Shown here piece by piece: positions 7,568-30,397 of a stretch of DNA of 37,322 nucleotides. Below the pieces are notes generated by a model that made no database searches, was not told the origin of the DNA, and saw only the letters and a program-made list of their open reading frames with translations. This stretch comes from Bacteroidales bacterium (lineage in GTDB: Bacteria; Bacteroidota; Bacteroidia; Bacteroidales; UBA7960). Position numbers and translations under genes: made by a program. Every line of letters starts with the position of its first letter. Position 1 is the first letter of the stretch. The stretch spans positions 1 to 37,322 of the forward strand of contig PWKN01000016.1 in assembly GCA_003559735.1 (NCBI GenBank), given 5' to 3'.

Positions 7568-7641
7568 TAGCGGGGACGGGAGTTGAACCCGTGACCTTCG
7601 GGTTATGAATCCGACGCTCTAACCACCTGAGCTACCCCGCC
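7568..7641 (-). tRNA. tRNA-Met (CAT), elongator type
   Basis: The 74-nt minus-strand sequence folds into a complete cloverleaf: 7-bp acceptor stem (1-72 is a G-U pair), D arm GCTC/GAGC, anticodon loop TTCATAA, variable loop AGGTC, and T arm ACGGG/CCCGT with loop TTCAACT. The discriminator is A and no CCA is encoded. Pair 11-24 is C-G, and the initiator-type three G-C pairs next to the anticodon loop are absent, pointing to elongator Met. A minor tRNA-Ile with a lysidine-modified CAT anticodon is a less likely alternative. The innermost anticodon-stem position (31-39) is an A-C mismatch. Confidence 0.95.
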
Positions 7642-16585: not shown

Positions 16586-17437
16586 TTAATGTCTGCGCCT
16601 GTTAAAATGGTACACAACACCCGCCTGGGGAGAATACCCCAGTATGTAATGGTATGATGTTGCAATATCGATTTGCCATTGACCGGTACGGAGTCCGAAC
16701 CCAAACGTATTTTGTACCGGGTTGGTGCTGATGCCTGCACGGACAAACATCTCCCCACGGAAATTGTATTCCAGTCCTGCCCTGGCTGTCAGGTCGTGAT
16801 GGATCTCTTTTTCTGCTTCAACGCAGAGCAGCAGGTAATCAGAAAAGGTGTATGCCAGTCCGGTGCGTATAATTGTGGGGATCCTTTCTGCCCTGTTCAG
16901 GTACCCGTATCTCACTATGACTGTCCGCATAGGATTAAACAGGTGCACCCCGATATGGAGATCTGGGATCACTTCACAGATCAGTCCCATTTCTGCGACC
17001 AGAGTTCCCTTTTTTGCATATCCGTCACCCAGGGCAACATATAGGTGGTTCAGTTTGATGCCGGCCGACAGTTTATCACCAAACTGCCGTGCATAGGATA
17101 ATCCGGCGGTTCTCTCGTGGTAAAGGTGGTTGCCAAAGTGGGTGAGGGCGAATCCAAAGGTGCCTGTGGATGCAGGGATAAGGCAGGCAATTGCTGCCAT
17201 CGACATCTCCGCTGCCATGAACCGGTTTTCGGTATGAAGTGCGACCGCCGGCTGCTCCAGTTTTGCGGTGCCGGCCTGGTTATTCGTGATGGCCCACAGG
17301 TCGAATAGTGCAGCCGAGGCATTTGCCATTCCCGCTGTCCGCGCCCCGGCTGTCACGCTGCCTGCCTGCGCATCCGGCAAACAGGCCGGGGACAGAAAAA
17401 AAATAATGAGCAGATGGGAGTGGCGCACGAACAACAT
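16586..17437 (-). CDS. PorV/PorQ-like outer-membrane barrel protein
   Basis: A 283-aa protein with a signal peptide (1-25). The mature start GARTAGMANASAALFDLWAI, followed by TNNQAG, is the typical opening of PorV/PorQ/FadL-related Bacteroidota barrels (GARxxGMGxASVAL, NNxAGLA). Strands such as GLSYARQF, GIKLNHLYVALGDGYAKKG and VRAGISTNPVQNTFGFGL, and a C-terminus near VVYHF, fit a 12-14 strand barrel. It is shorter than PorV (about 380 aa) and PorQ (about 340 aa), so assignment to T9SS is uncertain. It could be a general lipid or solute channel, or a shuttle partner of the downstream helix-hairpin-helix protein. Confidence 0.78.
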   Translation of the reverse strand: MLFVRHSHLLIIFFLSPACLPDAQAGSVTAGARTAGMANASAALFDLWAITNNQAGTAKLEQPAVALHTENRFMAAEMSMAAIACLIPASTGTFGFALTHFGNHLYHERTAGLSYARQFGDKLSAGIKLNHLYVALGDGYAKKGTLVAEMGLICEVIPDLHIGVHLFNPMRTVIVRYGYLNRAERIPTIIRTGLAYTFSDYLLLCVEAEKEIHHDLTARAGLEYNFRGEMFVRAGISTNPVQNTFGFGLRTGQWQIDIATSYHYILGYSPQAGVVYHFNRRRH

Positions 17438-20916: not shown

Positions 20917-22302
20917 TTAGAAGAACAGCAATACGGCTACGCCAAAATAAATAAGCAACCCGGTAATATCGACAAGGGTGGTGATGGCCGGACTGGCGGC
21001 AACAGCGGGGTCACCTCCCAGGCGCTTGACGATCAGGGGCAGGGCAGCGCCGATCATTGTGGCGGTGATCACCTGTAAACTAAGGGCAAGCGCTATGCCG
21101 AATGCCAGGAAATAAAGGCTATATTGTTCGGGAATAGCCATTCCCCACGACAGAAAAAGGATTTTGCCGAAAGCGATTATGCCGAGTACCACGGATAACA
21201 TCAGCGCGATGCGTGCTTCTTTGAACAGGATCATGAACCAGTCCCTCAGACTGATCTGACCCAGTGCAATGGCCCGGATCACCACGGTAGCAGCCTGGGA
21301 GCCCACATTACCACCTGAGTCGGCCACCATAGGCATGTACAGTGCCAGGATGATGAGGGCTGACATGGCTTCTTCAAAACGATGGATGATCATGCCCGAT
21401 ATTACCCCGATGATCGCCAGGGACGCCACCCAGGTGATGCGCTTGCGAAAGTGCAGGAGCACCCCCGTCTCCGGATAATCCAGTCCGTCGTCATCAGGCA
21501 GGATCCCCATGAACTTCTCCATATCTTCGGTCTGCTCAGCCTGGATCACTTCAATGGCATCATCGTGCCTTACAATGCCGGCAAGCTGACCATATTTGTT
21601 GATCACCGGAATGGCCACCAGGTCGTATTTTTCGATCCGGGCCGCTACCGTTTCCCTGTCCTCATCCACCTCTGCCCTGGCAAAATCCTTATACACAATG
21701 TCCCAGATTGATGCATCAGGGTCGGCCATGATCAGGTCTTTCAGGGTGGTGAATCCGTGCAGTTTCATATCGTTATCGACCACATACACATAATAGATCA
21801 TCTTCCTCGACGGGGCATCCCTGCGCACTTTTTCAATTGCCTGGGAAGCGGTCATGTCGCCCATGATCGTAGCAAAATCGGTACTCATAATACCCCCGGC
21901 GGTTTCAGGTTCATATGAACTCAGCCTGATAACGTTTTCGCGGGTTTTTTTATCGAGATACGGCAGCAGCTTGAGCTGGTCCTCCCTGTCGAGTTCCTGG
22001 TAAAGGTCTGCACGCAGGTCAGATGCCATATAGAGGAATATGCTGGCAAAGTTTTTCGGCCCCAGCTTTTTATAGAGCTCTTCCTGCAATTCAAGGTCAA
22101 AGTCAGAAACTATGATCCCTTGTTCTTCCGAAGAAAAAAAGCCAAGCACTTCTATCAGGTCAGGCAGATCAAGATCCCTGAGTACCTCCACGATATCGAC
22201 AACGGGCATTTTCTTAAGAATGGCAACCAGTGCCTCCCATTCCTTCGACGCTACCAGTCCCTCGATGACCATGTTTTTCTGAGTGGTTTCTGCTGTAAGC
22301 AT
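20917..22302 (-). CDS. mgtE: MgtE family magnesium transporter
   Basis: A 461-aa inner-membrane Mg2+ channel. The order is the classical one: an N-terminal superhelical domain (about 1-130, with LPDLIEVLGFFSSEEQ), a CBS pair (about 135-255, opening ETAGGIMSTDFATI), a plug helix, then five membrane helices from about 285. These contain GGNVGSQAATVVIRAIALGQ, which lines the pore, and the C-terminal SPAITTLVDITGLLIYF with the selectivity aspartate. The start is fixed by an exceptionally strong Shine-Dalgarno (AAAGGAGGG) 5-7 bases before the ATG. Expression is controlled by the M-box riboswitch and terminator just upstream, so transport should rise when cell magnesium is low. Confidence 0.97.
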   Translation of the reverse strand: MLTAETTQKNMVIEGLVASKEWEALVAILKKMPVVDIVEVLRDLDLPDLIEVLGFFSSEEQGIIVSDFDLELQEELYKKLGPKNFASIFLYMASDLRADLYQELDREDQLKLLPYLDKKTRENVIRLSSYEPETAGGIMSTDFATIMGDMTASQAIEKVRRDAPSRKMIYYVYVVDNDMKLHGFTTLKDLIMADPDASIWDIVYKDFARAEVDEDRETVAARIEKYDLVAIPVINKYGQLAGIVRHDDAIEVIQAEQTEDMEKFMGILPDDDGLDYPETGVLLHFRKRITWVASLAIIGVISGMIIHRFEEAMSALIILALYMPMVADSGGNVGSQAATVVIRAIALGQISLRDWFMILFKEARIALMLSVVLGIIAFGKILFLSWGMAIPEQYSLYFLAFGIALALSLQVITATMIGAALPLIVKRLGGDPAVAASPAITTLVDITGLLIYFGVAVLLFF

Positions 22303-22306
22303 GGCT

Positions 22307-22315
22307 CCCTCCTTT
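22307..22315 (-). promoter_or_regulatory. Strong Shine-Dalgarno of mgtE
   Basis: The minus strand reads AAAGGAGGG ahead of the mgtE ATG. Such a full anti-16S match is uncommon in this phylum and is not seen before most other genes in the window. Confidence 0.75.
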
Positions 22316-22363
22316 CTGTTGGTGATGGTATATGCCCGGTGAAAACCGTATGCGGGGTAAGGC

Positions 22364-22408
22364 TACAAAAAAACCCTTCCGGAGAATTTTTTGGAAGGGG
22401 GCTTTGTA
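22364..22408 (-). terminator. Riboswitch-controlled intrinsic terminator of the mgtE leader
   Basis: On the minus strand CCCTTCC and GGAAGGG (22393-22399 and 22374-22380) form a 7-bp GC-rich stem with a 12-base loop, followed by seven T. An outer TTACAAA/TTTGTA pairing may add stability. The left arm contains CCCCTT, complementary to AAGGGG in the 3' strand of the M-box closing stem, giving a simple terminator/antiterminator switch. It lies 62 bases before the mgtE start. Confidence 0.9.
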
Positions 22409-22414
22409 ACATAC

Positions 22415-22446
22415 CGGGGATGTGCTGTCACATAGACGTATCCCCG
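22415..22446 (-). promoter_or_regulatory. Linker hairpin between M-box aptamer and terminator
   Basis: CGGGGAT pairs with ATCCCCG, with an inner TGTG/CACA stem. It sits between the aptamer and the terminator and may separate the two folds or pause the polymerase. Its role is inferred. Confidence 0.5.
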
Positions 22447-22452
22447 TTGTTC

Positions 22453-22610
22453 TGCCCCTTGTTGAGTTTTAGCTCTGGATGACTTATCCCCCTCAGGGGA
22501 AGCTACCTTGGGCAATGCCTTAATCCGACAATGCCTGTTCTACCCATTGGCGTCTGTAGACATTTTTGGGCAGCAGCCTGTGTTCACCCAGTAGCCTCAC
22601 CTAACAGGCA
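22453..22610 (-). promoter_or_regulatory. M-box (ykoK) magnesium riboswitch
   Basis: Read on the minus strand, the conserved M-box blocks occur in order: TGTTAGGTGAGGCT, then GCTGCTGCCCAAAAATGTC, then AGACGCCAATGGGT, then ATTAAGGCATTG, and finally GAGCTAAAACTC. The closing stem pairs TGCC/GGCA and TGTT/AACA. The length (158 nt) and block spacing agree with the known magnesium-sensing class, and it lies directly before mgtE, its classical target. The family binds Mg2+ and terminates transcription when magnesium is plentiful. Confidence 0.95.
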
Positions 22611-22650
22611 ATACCACTGTCTGGTTAACAATGCTGATCTTTTCAGACCA

Positions 22651-22658
22651 CAAAGATA
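22651..22658 (-). promoter_or_regulatory. Promoter (-7 box) of the mgtE leader
   Basis: The minus strand reads TATCTTTG, matching TAnnTTTG, about 40 bases before the first conserved M-box block. Transcription from here gives a leader of about 340 nt containing the whole riboswitch. A -33 box is not clear. Confidence 0.55.
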
Positions 22659-28006: not shown

Positions 28007-30397
28007 ATGAAAAATGCATGCATTATGCCGGCAATCATCCTGGTATCAGTATTGCAGGGATTGACCCAAACATACAACTACCAGGTGAAAACCGATGGCT
28101 TCATCCAATTTGATGAAACCAGAATAGATTGGGATCTGCACATCAGGAAAGGAGTGGGGAGCAATGATTTTGCATTGTGGAAAATACAAATCAGGTGGGA
28201 TTTTGACCCGCTGATAATGAACTTTGGGGCTTTTGCTGATGACGGATTTGCCATTGAGGCCGGAACTGAAATGACCCAAAACAGTAATTTCTTCAAAGAT
28301 GTTGATTGTACTGTTATTAATAACCAGCAATTTCAATGGGCAGTTACCGGTCCGCCTGACAAAAATGAAAGAATGACCATCATCACCGATGAATGGATCC
28401 GTGTGGCTACCTTCACTGCCCGGCTGCAAAAAGATGGGGAGGCTCATCACTTTGCCAGCCTGGTTCCTGCATTTGCATTTCAGACGTCAGGTGCTCAAAT
28501 TATCGTAGAACGGGCAAACACTACTGCAGAAACGTACAATGGATCTGGTGCCACTGTGGTTACCCGTGATGCCACTTTCCCTGGACCTGGTATAACCATT
28601 AGCGACCGTCAGTTGGCGGGATATTGGTTTACAGGTGAGGGTGACTGGTCAACCACCGGAAACTGGAATCAATCTTTAAAGAATGAGTTTCCCGGGTATG
28701 ATCAACTGGTTCCAGGTGAAAATGCCAGTGTGGTGATCAATGGAAATGTGACCATTTACAATGGTGCCGTCACCCTCTCTGCCGCTGGTGAAGGCAGGGG
28801 AGGGCAACTGACCGTGATGTCAGGGCCAGTTTTGTCACCGCCAATGATGCCTGCCAACGATGTAGGAATGACCGAAGCCAGTGCAGCCAAAAACAAAATC
28901 CACAGATACCCTGAGAGAGCTGGTGGTATTGACAAAAACAATTTGGGCGCCTCCCTCACCATTGCCCCCGGTGCTGCATTAACCGTCGACAAACTCTTCA
29001 ACGACCACGACGATGGAGCGGATGGAATTATGCTTCAGTCACCTGCAGGTCACGGTGCAGCCGGCTCGCTGATCCACAGCAATACCGGGGTGCCAGCTTC
29101 TGTGCAGCGCTACATTGCACGTCATTCGGGTGCAGATGTGGATGGTTGGCACCTGCTTTCTGCTCCGGTGAGTGGGCAGGATATCAAACCTGAGTTTTTC
29201 CCTTCCTCAACGGAAGGAGCCGGGTATCATGCTGTAGACTTTTACCGCTGGAACGAAGCCAACAGCACCTGGCTGAACATTAAGGATGCAGGAAATGCCT
29301 TTGCGCACACTCAATTTCAGGTGGGTCATGGCTACCTCATGGCCTATGGGGTGCCTGCTGCTAAGGACACATGGGGTGACCGGACACATACTTTCGCCGG
29401 TCCCGCGAATGTGGAAGCGCGTGAACTTTCCAATTTAAGTTTAGCCTCAGAAGGAACCTATGCCGGCTGGCATTTGCTGGGCAATCCATTTGCCAGTGCG
29501 CTAAAGTGGAATGATGCCAGCGGCTGGAATCTTAATAATGCCGGCAGCCCCCACGTGTGGGATGACACTGCGAATGATTACAAAGAGATTACCGGTGCTG
29601 ACGTCATCCCGGCCATGAACGGGCTGATGATCAAAGTGACCGGTGCCACCAACGCAATCACATTGAATCCGGATAACCGGGTGCACAGCGGCCAGGCCTG
29701 GTATAAACAACAGGAGCGGGACGATCGCATCCGTCTGCTGGCGCGGGATCCTTCGATAAACAGTGCCAAGGGCAGTACGGTCATCTTCCGGGAAGATGCC
29801 CAAAAAGGAATGGATCGATACGACTCATATATGATATCCGGATTTGGGCCTGTTTTCTTCAGCCGGGTGGAACAGGCGCGACTGTCCGTAAACGCATTGC
29901 CAGAGTATTACGATGGCCTGACGATTCCTTTCGGTTTCGACCGCAACCCGGTTTCACAGGGTACGGAATTCTCCATCGAACTGGAATCGAAACTAAGGGA
30001 ACTTGATGATAAGGGCTATGAACTTTACCTGCAGGACCTCAAACTGGATGTGATGCACAACCTGAGCGAAAAACGGGTATATGAATTTACCTGGCAACCG
30101 GAAGATGATATCAACCGGTTCCTGCTTCACCTGGCCAAAACACCTGTAAGTACGGATGAGCCTGGCAATGACCACGCAACGCCTGGTAATGCGTGGACAT
30201 ACAATAACAACCTCTATCTGTTCTGTGCAGAAGAGGGGACTACCGTATCGCTGTTCGATATCAGCGGATGCGAACTGATGAAATACCACTCCGTGAAAGG
30301 TGAACAGGTGATACACCTTAACCTGCCGGCAGGGATTTATATGGTGCGTATGATCAATAACAACAATACCAAAACAATTAAAGTGACACTAAATTAA
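28007..30397 (+). CDS. T9SS-sorted surface protein, cohesin-like N-terminal region
   Basis: A 796-aa protein with a short signal peptide (1-20). Residues about 22-190 resemble cohesin-like beta-sandwich modules of Bacteroidota proteins (IDWDLHIRKGVGSNDFALWK, then VATFTARL and AFAFQTSG); this is tentative. The middle has an unidentified glycan-layer-like beta region (ADGWHLLSAPV-type blocks: VDGWHLLSAPVSGQD, WHLLGNPFASALKWND). Residues about 727-796 are a type A T9SS sorting domain (LYLFCAEEGTTVSLFDISG, HLNLPAGIYMVRMI, TKTIKVTLN), which directs passage over the outer membrane and attachment to the surface. It lies 53 bases after the dockerin-like gene and is followed by a strong terminator. 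Paralogues lie at 30579 and 34480. Confidence 0.87.
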   Translation: MKNACIMPAIILVSVLQGLTQTYNYQVKTDGFIQFDETRIDWDLHIRKGVGSNDFALWKIQIRWDFDPLIMNFGAFADDGFAIEAGTEMTQNSNFFKDVDCTVINNQQFQWAVTGPPDKNERMTIITDEWIRVATFTARLQKDGEAHHFASLVPAFAFQTSGAQIIVERANTTAETYNGSGATVVTRDATFPGPGITISDRQLAGYWFTGEGDWSTTGNWNQSLKNEFPGYDQLVPGENASVVINGNVTIYNGAVTLSAAGEGRGGQLTVMSGPVLSPPMMPANDVGMTEASAAKNKIHRYPERAGGIDKNNLGASLTIAPGAALTVDKLFNDHDDGADGIMLQSPAGHGAAGSLIHSNTGVPASVQRYIARHSGADVDGWHLLSAPVSGQDIKPEFFPSSTEGAGYHAVDFYRWNEANSTWLNIKDAGNAFAHTQFQVGHGYLMAYGVPAAKDTWGDRTHTFAGPANVEARELSNLSLASEGTYAGWHLLGNPFASALKWNDASGWNLNNAGSPHVWDDTANDYKEITGADVIPAMNGLMIKVTGATNAITLNPDNRVHSGQAWYKQQERDDRIRLLARDPSINSAKGSTVIFREDAQKGMDRYDSYMISGFGPVFFSRVEQARLSVNALPEYYDGLTIPFGFDRNPVSQGTEFSIELESKLRELDDKGYELYLQDLKLDVMHNLSEKRVYEFTWQPEDDINRFLLHLAKTPVSTDEPGNDHATPGNAWTYNNNLYLFCAEEGTTVSLFDISGCELMKYHSVKGEQVIHLNLPAGIYMVRMINNNNTKTIKVTLN

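Follow-up and report, generated by a model that had tools for sequence, protein, structure and literature searches.

A predicted M-box magnesium riboswitch with a Bacteroidota-type promoter in the leader of a Bacteroidales mgtE gene

Results

The window analyzed here is the whole 37,322-nucleotide stretch of contig PWKN01000016.1 from a Bacteroidales bacterium; its relevant features are collected in Table 1. An Rfam scan of the window returned an M-box as the sole riboswitch match, and a genome-wide RF00380 scan found only this one M-box in the 3.66-Mb host genome. The next gene downstream on the same strand is mgtE, placing the M-box in the 5′ leader of a gene that encodes a Mg2+ transporter, with the divergent argS on the opposite side. 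The identity of mgtE, already proposed in a sequence-only reading of this DNA, was confirmed by a match to the TIGR00400 equivalog (330.9 bits versus a cut-off of 232.75) and by the presence, in order, of MgtE_N (PF03448), a CBS pair (PF00571), and the transmembrane MgtE domain (PF01769). Elsewhere in the window, the type IX secretion (T9SS) sorting-domain protein and the PorV/PorQ-like protein are consistent with Bacteroidota.

Table 1. Features of the M-box/mgtE leader and of the surrounding window
Feature	Position	Strand	Basis or remark
PorV/PorQ-like protein	16586-17437	-	match below its NCBIfam cut-off
T9SS sorting-domain protein	28007-30397	+	consistent with Bacteroidota
tRNA gene	7568-7641	-	RF00005, 67.8 bits
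argS, divergent gene	likely ATG 22780	+	opposite side of the M-box/mgtE leader
-7 promoter element TATCTTTG (TAnnTTTG), Bacteroidota type	22651-22658	-	read from sequence
Complete M-box (ykoK) aptamer (168 nt) of the Mg2+ riboswitch	22448-22615	-	RF00380 covariance model
P1 3′ strand AAGGGGC, common to aptamer closing stem and antiterminator	22454-22460	-	sequence, covariance model alignment
Linker hairpin CGGGGAT...ATCCCCG, inside antiterminator	22415-22446	-	sequence, RNAfold
CCCCTT, partner of AAGGGG, overlapping terminator left arm	22400-22395	-	sequence
Intrinsic terminator CCCTTCC/GGAAGGG	22399-22393/22380-22374	-	read from sequence
Terminator U tract, seven T	22367-22373	-	sequence
Near-perfect Shine-Dalgarno AGAAAGGAGG before mgtE	22308-22317	-	sequence
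mgtE, 461-aa Mg2+ transporter	20917-22302, ATG at 22302	-	TIGR00400

The covariance model matched the minus strand over its full length (model positions 1 to 169; 146.9 bits, gathering cut-off 44, E = 1.4e-33). The core blocks GTTAGGTGAGGCT, CCAATGGGT, AACAGG, CGGATTAAGGC, and GCTAAAACTC all occur in order, and their pairing is conserved according to the model alignment and pair counts; the earlier description of a complete, ordered set of M-box blocks thus agrees with the alignment, and its coordinates hold. Across 28 distinct Bacteroidota aptamers and 49 consensus pairs, 97.6% of pair cells were standard, a figure favored by design because the structure was taken from the same alignment; the safer measure is the number of pairs with compensatory changes on both sides, which was 15 of 49, distributed over six of the eight helices. 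None of 500 shuffles reached these pairing values, and pairing fell to 35 to 43% when partners were offset by one to three columns. On this sequence evidence, the element is an M-box (ykoK) riboswitch, and we infer that it responds to Mg2+ in its host.

Downstream of the aptamer, a linker hairpin and then a terminator with seven T can be read directly in the minus-strand sequence, as had been noted. The same reading had also proposed that AAGGGG in the closing stem and CCCCTT in the terminator left arm pair in a mutually exclusive manner. The complement is present, and it is conserved in relatives, but in the window alone it lies within chance expectation: 56 of 400 dinucleotide shuffles matched a 6-bp complement, so that by itself it proves little, and the pairing draws its support from relatives, in which its position is conserved. 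RNAfold favored a shifted register, GGGGC (22458-22454) with GCCCC (22402-22398), which is compatible with a 5-bp terminator remnant. Predicted minimum free energies were −94.2 kcal/mol with the terminator forced, −90.4 kcal/mol with the antiterminator forced, and −96.4 kcal/mol unconstrained; such models ignore Mg2+-dependent tertiary contacts, and the computed energies do not separate the switch states.

The expression platform was examined in leaders from the window's own family (f1) and from another family of the same order (f93). AAGGGGC was present in all f1 and f93 leaders examined. All 23 complete leaders, that is, those extending far enough past the aptamer, carry downstream of it a hairpin followed by six or more U residues, and in 22 of these the left arm contains CCCCTT facing the invariant AAGGGG; the exception (L017) reads CTCCCTT and needs one G-U pair. 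Longer complements of 8 to 10 Watson-Crick pairs occur in members of genus g172 and of f93 (L005, L011, L021, L027, L028, and L048), where they were reached by only 0 to 8 of 400 shuffles. The leaders are mutually related, and these counts are therefore not independent trials. Platform and promoter are conserved across three f1 genera and across f93.

TAnnTTTG is the consensus of the Bacteroidota −7 promoter element. The claim that such a promoter precedes the M-box held in the window and extended to its relatives: the motif occurs in the 75 nt preceding the aptamer in all 26 leaders with enough sequence, versus 2.65 expected from dinucleotide shuffles. No clear −33 box was seen by eye upstream of TATCTTTG. 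Ahead of the coding region, the AAAGGAGG core of the Shine-Dalgarno site precedes the ATG in all tested g1 and g173 leaders and in three of four g172 leaders; it was not found before the ATG in leaders of f93, f200, or f192. Bacteroidota generally use Shine-Dalgarno sites rarely. In the host genome, AAAGGAGG followed by 3 to 9 nucleotides and ATG occurs 40 times, compared with 8 for the reversed pattern.

Bacteroidota genome samples drawn at several taxonomic levels were scanned for M-boxes. Matches were found in 2 of 395 genomes of the phylum sample (one being the window's own), 5 of 395 of the class sample, and 5 of 198 of the order sample; these samples overlap, and the stricter filters of the larger runs lose weak matches. 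Within the window's own family, 22 of 47 genomes in three of eight genera are carriers. Other carriers belong to f93 (G477 and G586), f200 (one of three genomes), f192 (8 of 24), and f38, a family of another class, with four matches among 197 genomes of that class. The scan controls, Bacillus subtilis and Lactococcus lactis, matched as expected. G409, G412, and G405 each gave a second, partial M-box match (L024 to L026); all three run up to a contig end or stop no more than 5 bases short of it and were set aside as probable fragments. M-boxes in Bacteroidota are thus rare and patchy, confined to a few scattered families, and the impression that one is unusual in this phylum was borne out by a carrier rate of about 0.5 to 2.5% of sampled genomes.

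In a maximum likelihood tree of MgtE (89 rows), the M-box-associated proteins of f1 and f93 formed one clade (support 99/99), joined by the f200 protein (81/97) and nested among Bacteroidota MgtE proteins without M-boxes. The simplest reading of this tree suggests that the switch was acquired a single time, by an mgtE native to Bacteroidota; because of the nesting, cotransfer of the M-box with a foreign mgtE in these three families is not favored. The clade includes one unlabelled row (L038), for which M-box loss was considered and rejected because the contig begins inside mgtE. The f192 M-boxes represented in the tree (L113 to L115) are a separate association: the MgtE they precede is divergent and shares about 30% identity with that of the window. 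The host genome also encodes a second MgtE (G000:C188:15523-16824, L110) in another clade; it has no M-box, since the genome holds only one. When the M-box DNA was placed in a tree with five plasmid-borne M-boxes, long branches joined and no donor was resolved, the sequence being too short and the sampling too sparse to name one.

The relatives with 79 to 86% identical MgtE are metagenome-assembled genomes (MAGs) of Bacteroidales or Bacteroidia bacteria labeled CSSed, B1Sed, T3Sed, and GEM2; we take the last label to denote a soda lake as well. CSSed10, B1Sed10, and T3Sed10 are samples of a soda-lake sediment study, which reports low calcium and magnesium in such lakes (PMC6146748). The labels belong to the nearest named MAG relatives rather than to the window's genome itself, and they point to a habitat described as low in Mg2+ (PMC6146748).

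Leaders outside f1 and f93 differ in their platforms. An intrinsic terminator was not found, partly by eye, in the f200 leader (L112) or the f192 leaders (L113 to L115 and L129 to L133). These M-boxes also precede mgtE. Base-composition windows showed a stretch richer in C than in G some 50 to 90 nt past the aptamer in L112 to L115, strongest in L112 and L113. Our guess is that control in f192 and f200 may operate through Rho-dependent termination or translation. The occurrence of terminator-bearing (f1 and f93) and terminator-less (f192 and f200) leaders in one phylum makes the evolution of the platform open to comparison.

The f38 M-boxes precede a different operon. In G208, G995, and G989, which together with G1004 carry the four f38 loci (L116:2400-7317 and L134 to L136), the M-box is followed by a terminator-like hairpin, an OprB porin, a double-domain ABC permease, and an ABC ATPase that contains AAA_assoc_C wherever the gene is complete. 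G1004 has the M-box with its hairpin and the permease plus ATPase but lacks the porin, so that the permease comes first. The four genomes are 92 to 100% complete. None has a TIGR00400 match above the cut-off (three have weak partial matches over about 80 to 105 model positions), and no CorA match was found in any of them; the search covered mgtE and CorA, and these genomes may still encode an ordinary Mg2+ transporter such as MgtA or NrmT. Members of the permease family are common among other bacteria, and the best NCBIfam match is a nitrate permease, below the cut-off. If the M-box senses Mg2+ in f38, the OprB-ABC operon is a candidate Mg2+ importer. We raise only tentatively, and as somewhat doubtful, the idea that Bacteroidota M-boxes point here to an unrecognized uptake route, with the ABC system an importer that Mg2+ starvation would turn on. 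Where M-boxes occur in rare lineages, they can flag unknown Mg2+ transporters, perhaps as in f38.

Discussion

We consider it very likely (probability of roughly 0.9) that the window contains a canonical M-box controlling mgtE by transcription attenuation, with Mg2+ turning expression off. RNA polymerase would start at the Bacteroidota-type promoter and transcribe the aptamer first. At high cytosolic Mg2+, ion binding would compact the aptamer and hold AAGGGGC in P1, leaving the terminator left arm free; the terminator would then form and transcription would end before mgtE. At low Mg2+, P1 would open, AAGGGGC and the left arm would pair as an antiterminator around the linker hairpin, and the resulting read-through would allow mgtE to be transcribed and translated. 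For the M-box class, Mg2+ is known to favor the aptamer, free the terminator, and lower expression (PMC4072509); the anatomy of the window leader fits this published attenuation scheme, and the layout conserved in relatives supports Mg2+-OFF attenuation of the same kind here.

No result obtained here speaks against this reading, with which three alternatives were compared. The strongest of them, although improbable, is that control is exerted mainly by Rho-dependent termination or at translation, the hairpin and T tract marking the end of a short RNA. The pe20 M-box of Mycobacterium tuberculosis acts by such a route (PMC12810186), the f192 and f200 M-boxes lack an intrinsic terminator and show a C-rich stretch in those examined, and the window mgtE has a strong Shine-Dalgarno site. 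Nevertheless, every complete f1 and f93 leader keeps a terminator with at least six U, the complementary left arm is preserved in nearly all of them, and no pairing that masks the mgtE Shine-Dalgarno site stood out by eye. Even less probable is a degenerate or recently transferred M-box whose regulation has been lost: although the class is rare in this phylum and may have originated outside Bacteroidota, the high full-length score, the compensatory changes in most helices, and the retention of platform and promoter across genera and families argue against decay. The least probable is that the aptamer now senses a different divalent ion, for example Mn2+. M-box aptamers have been crystallized with manganese (to judge from a title cited in PMC4072509), but the gene that follows encodes an MgtE equivalog and the conserved blocks fit the family consensus.

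The switch class itself is already known, and the phylum, though rare for M-boxes, has a precedent. A metagenome survey published in 2007 lists one ykoK element under Bacteroidetes/Chlorobi in its Table 2, going by the column order in the legend (PMC2211319), so that a Bacteroidota M-box is not a first. That element shares with the window its class and broad taxonomic group, but it is a single metagenome fragment; one of the survey's two ykoK elements, which may or may not be this one, lies upstream of mgtE (PMC2211319). The sequence-only reading described the class as known mainly from Firmicutes and Actinobacteria. Nramp-related NrmT transporters in Clostridia and Deltaproteobacteria are linked to M-boxes of the same aptamer class (PMC4072509), whereas the window's M-box would control MgtE. 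The pe20 M-box likewise shares the aptamer class, but its platform is translational and is coupled to termination by Rho (PMC12810186). The intrinsic terminator sets the window apart, leaving pe20 as a possible analogue of the f192 and f200 M-boxes only. A further close counterpart is the mgtE/ykoK M-box of Bacillus subtilis, which has the same aptamer class (RF00380), target gene family, and attenuator logic, with the P1 3′ strand common to the antiterminator. The window differs from it in phylum, in its TAnnTTTG promoter, in its conserved AAGGGGC/GCCCCTT module, and in its MgtE, which is of the Bacteroidota type and shares about 31% identity with one from Bacillus velezensis. In this locus, a thoroughly studied Mg2+ switch is coupled to a Bacteroidota promoter and sits ahead of a gene native to the phylum.
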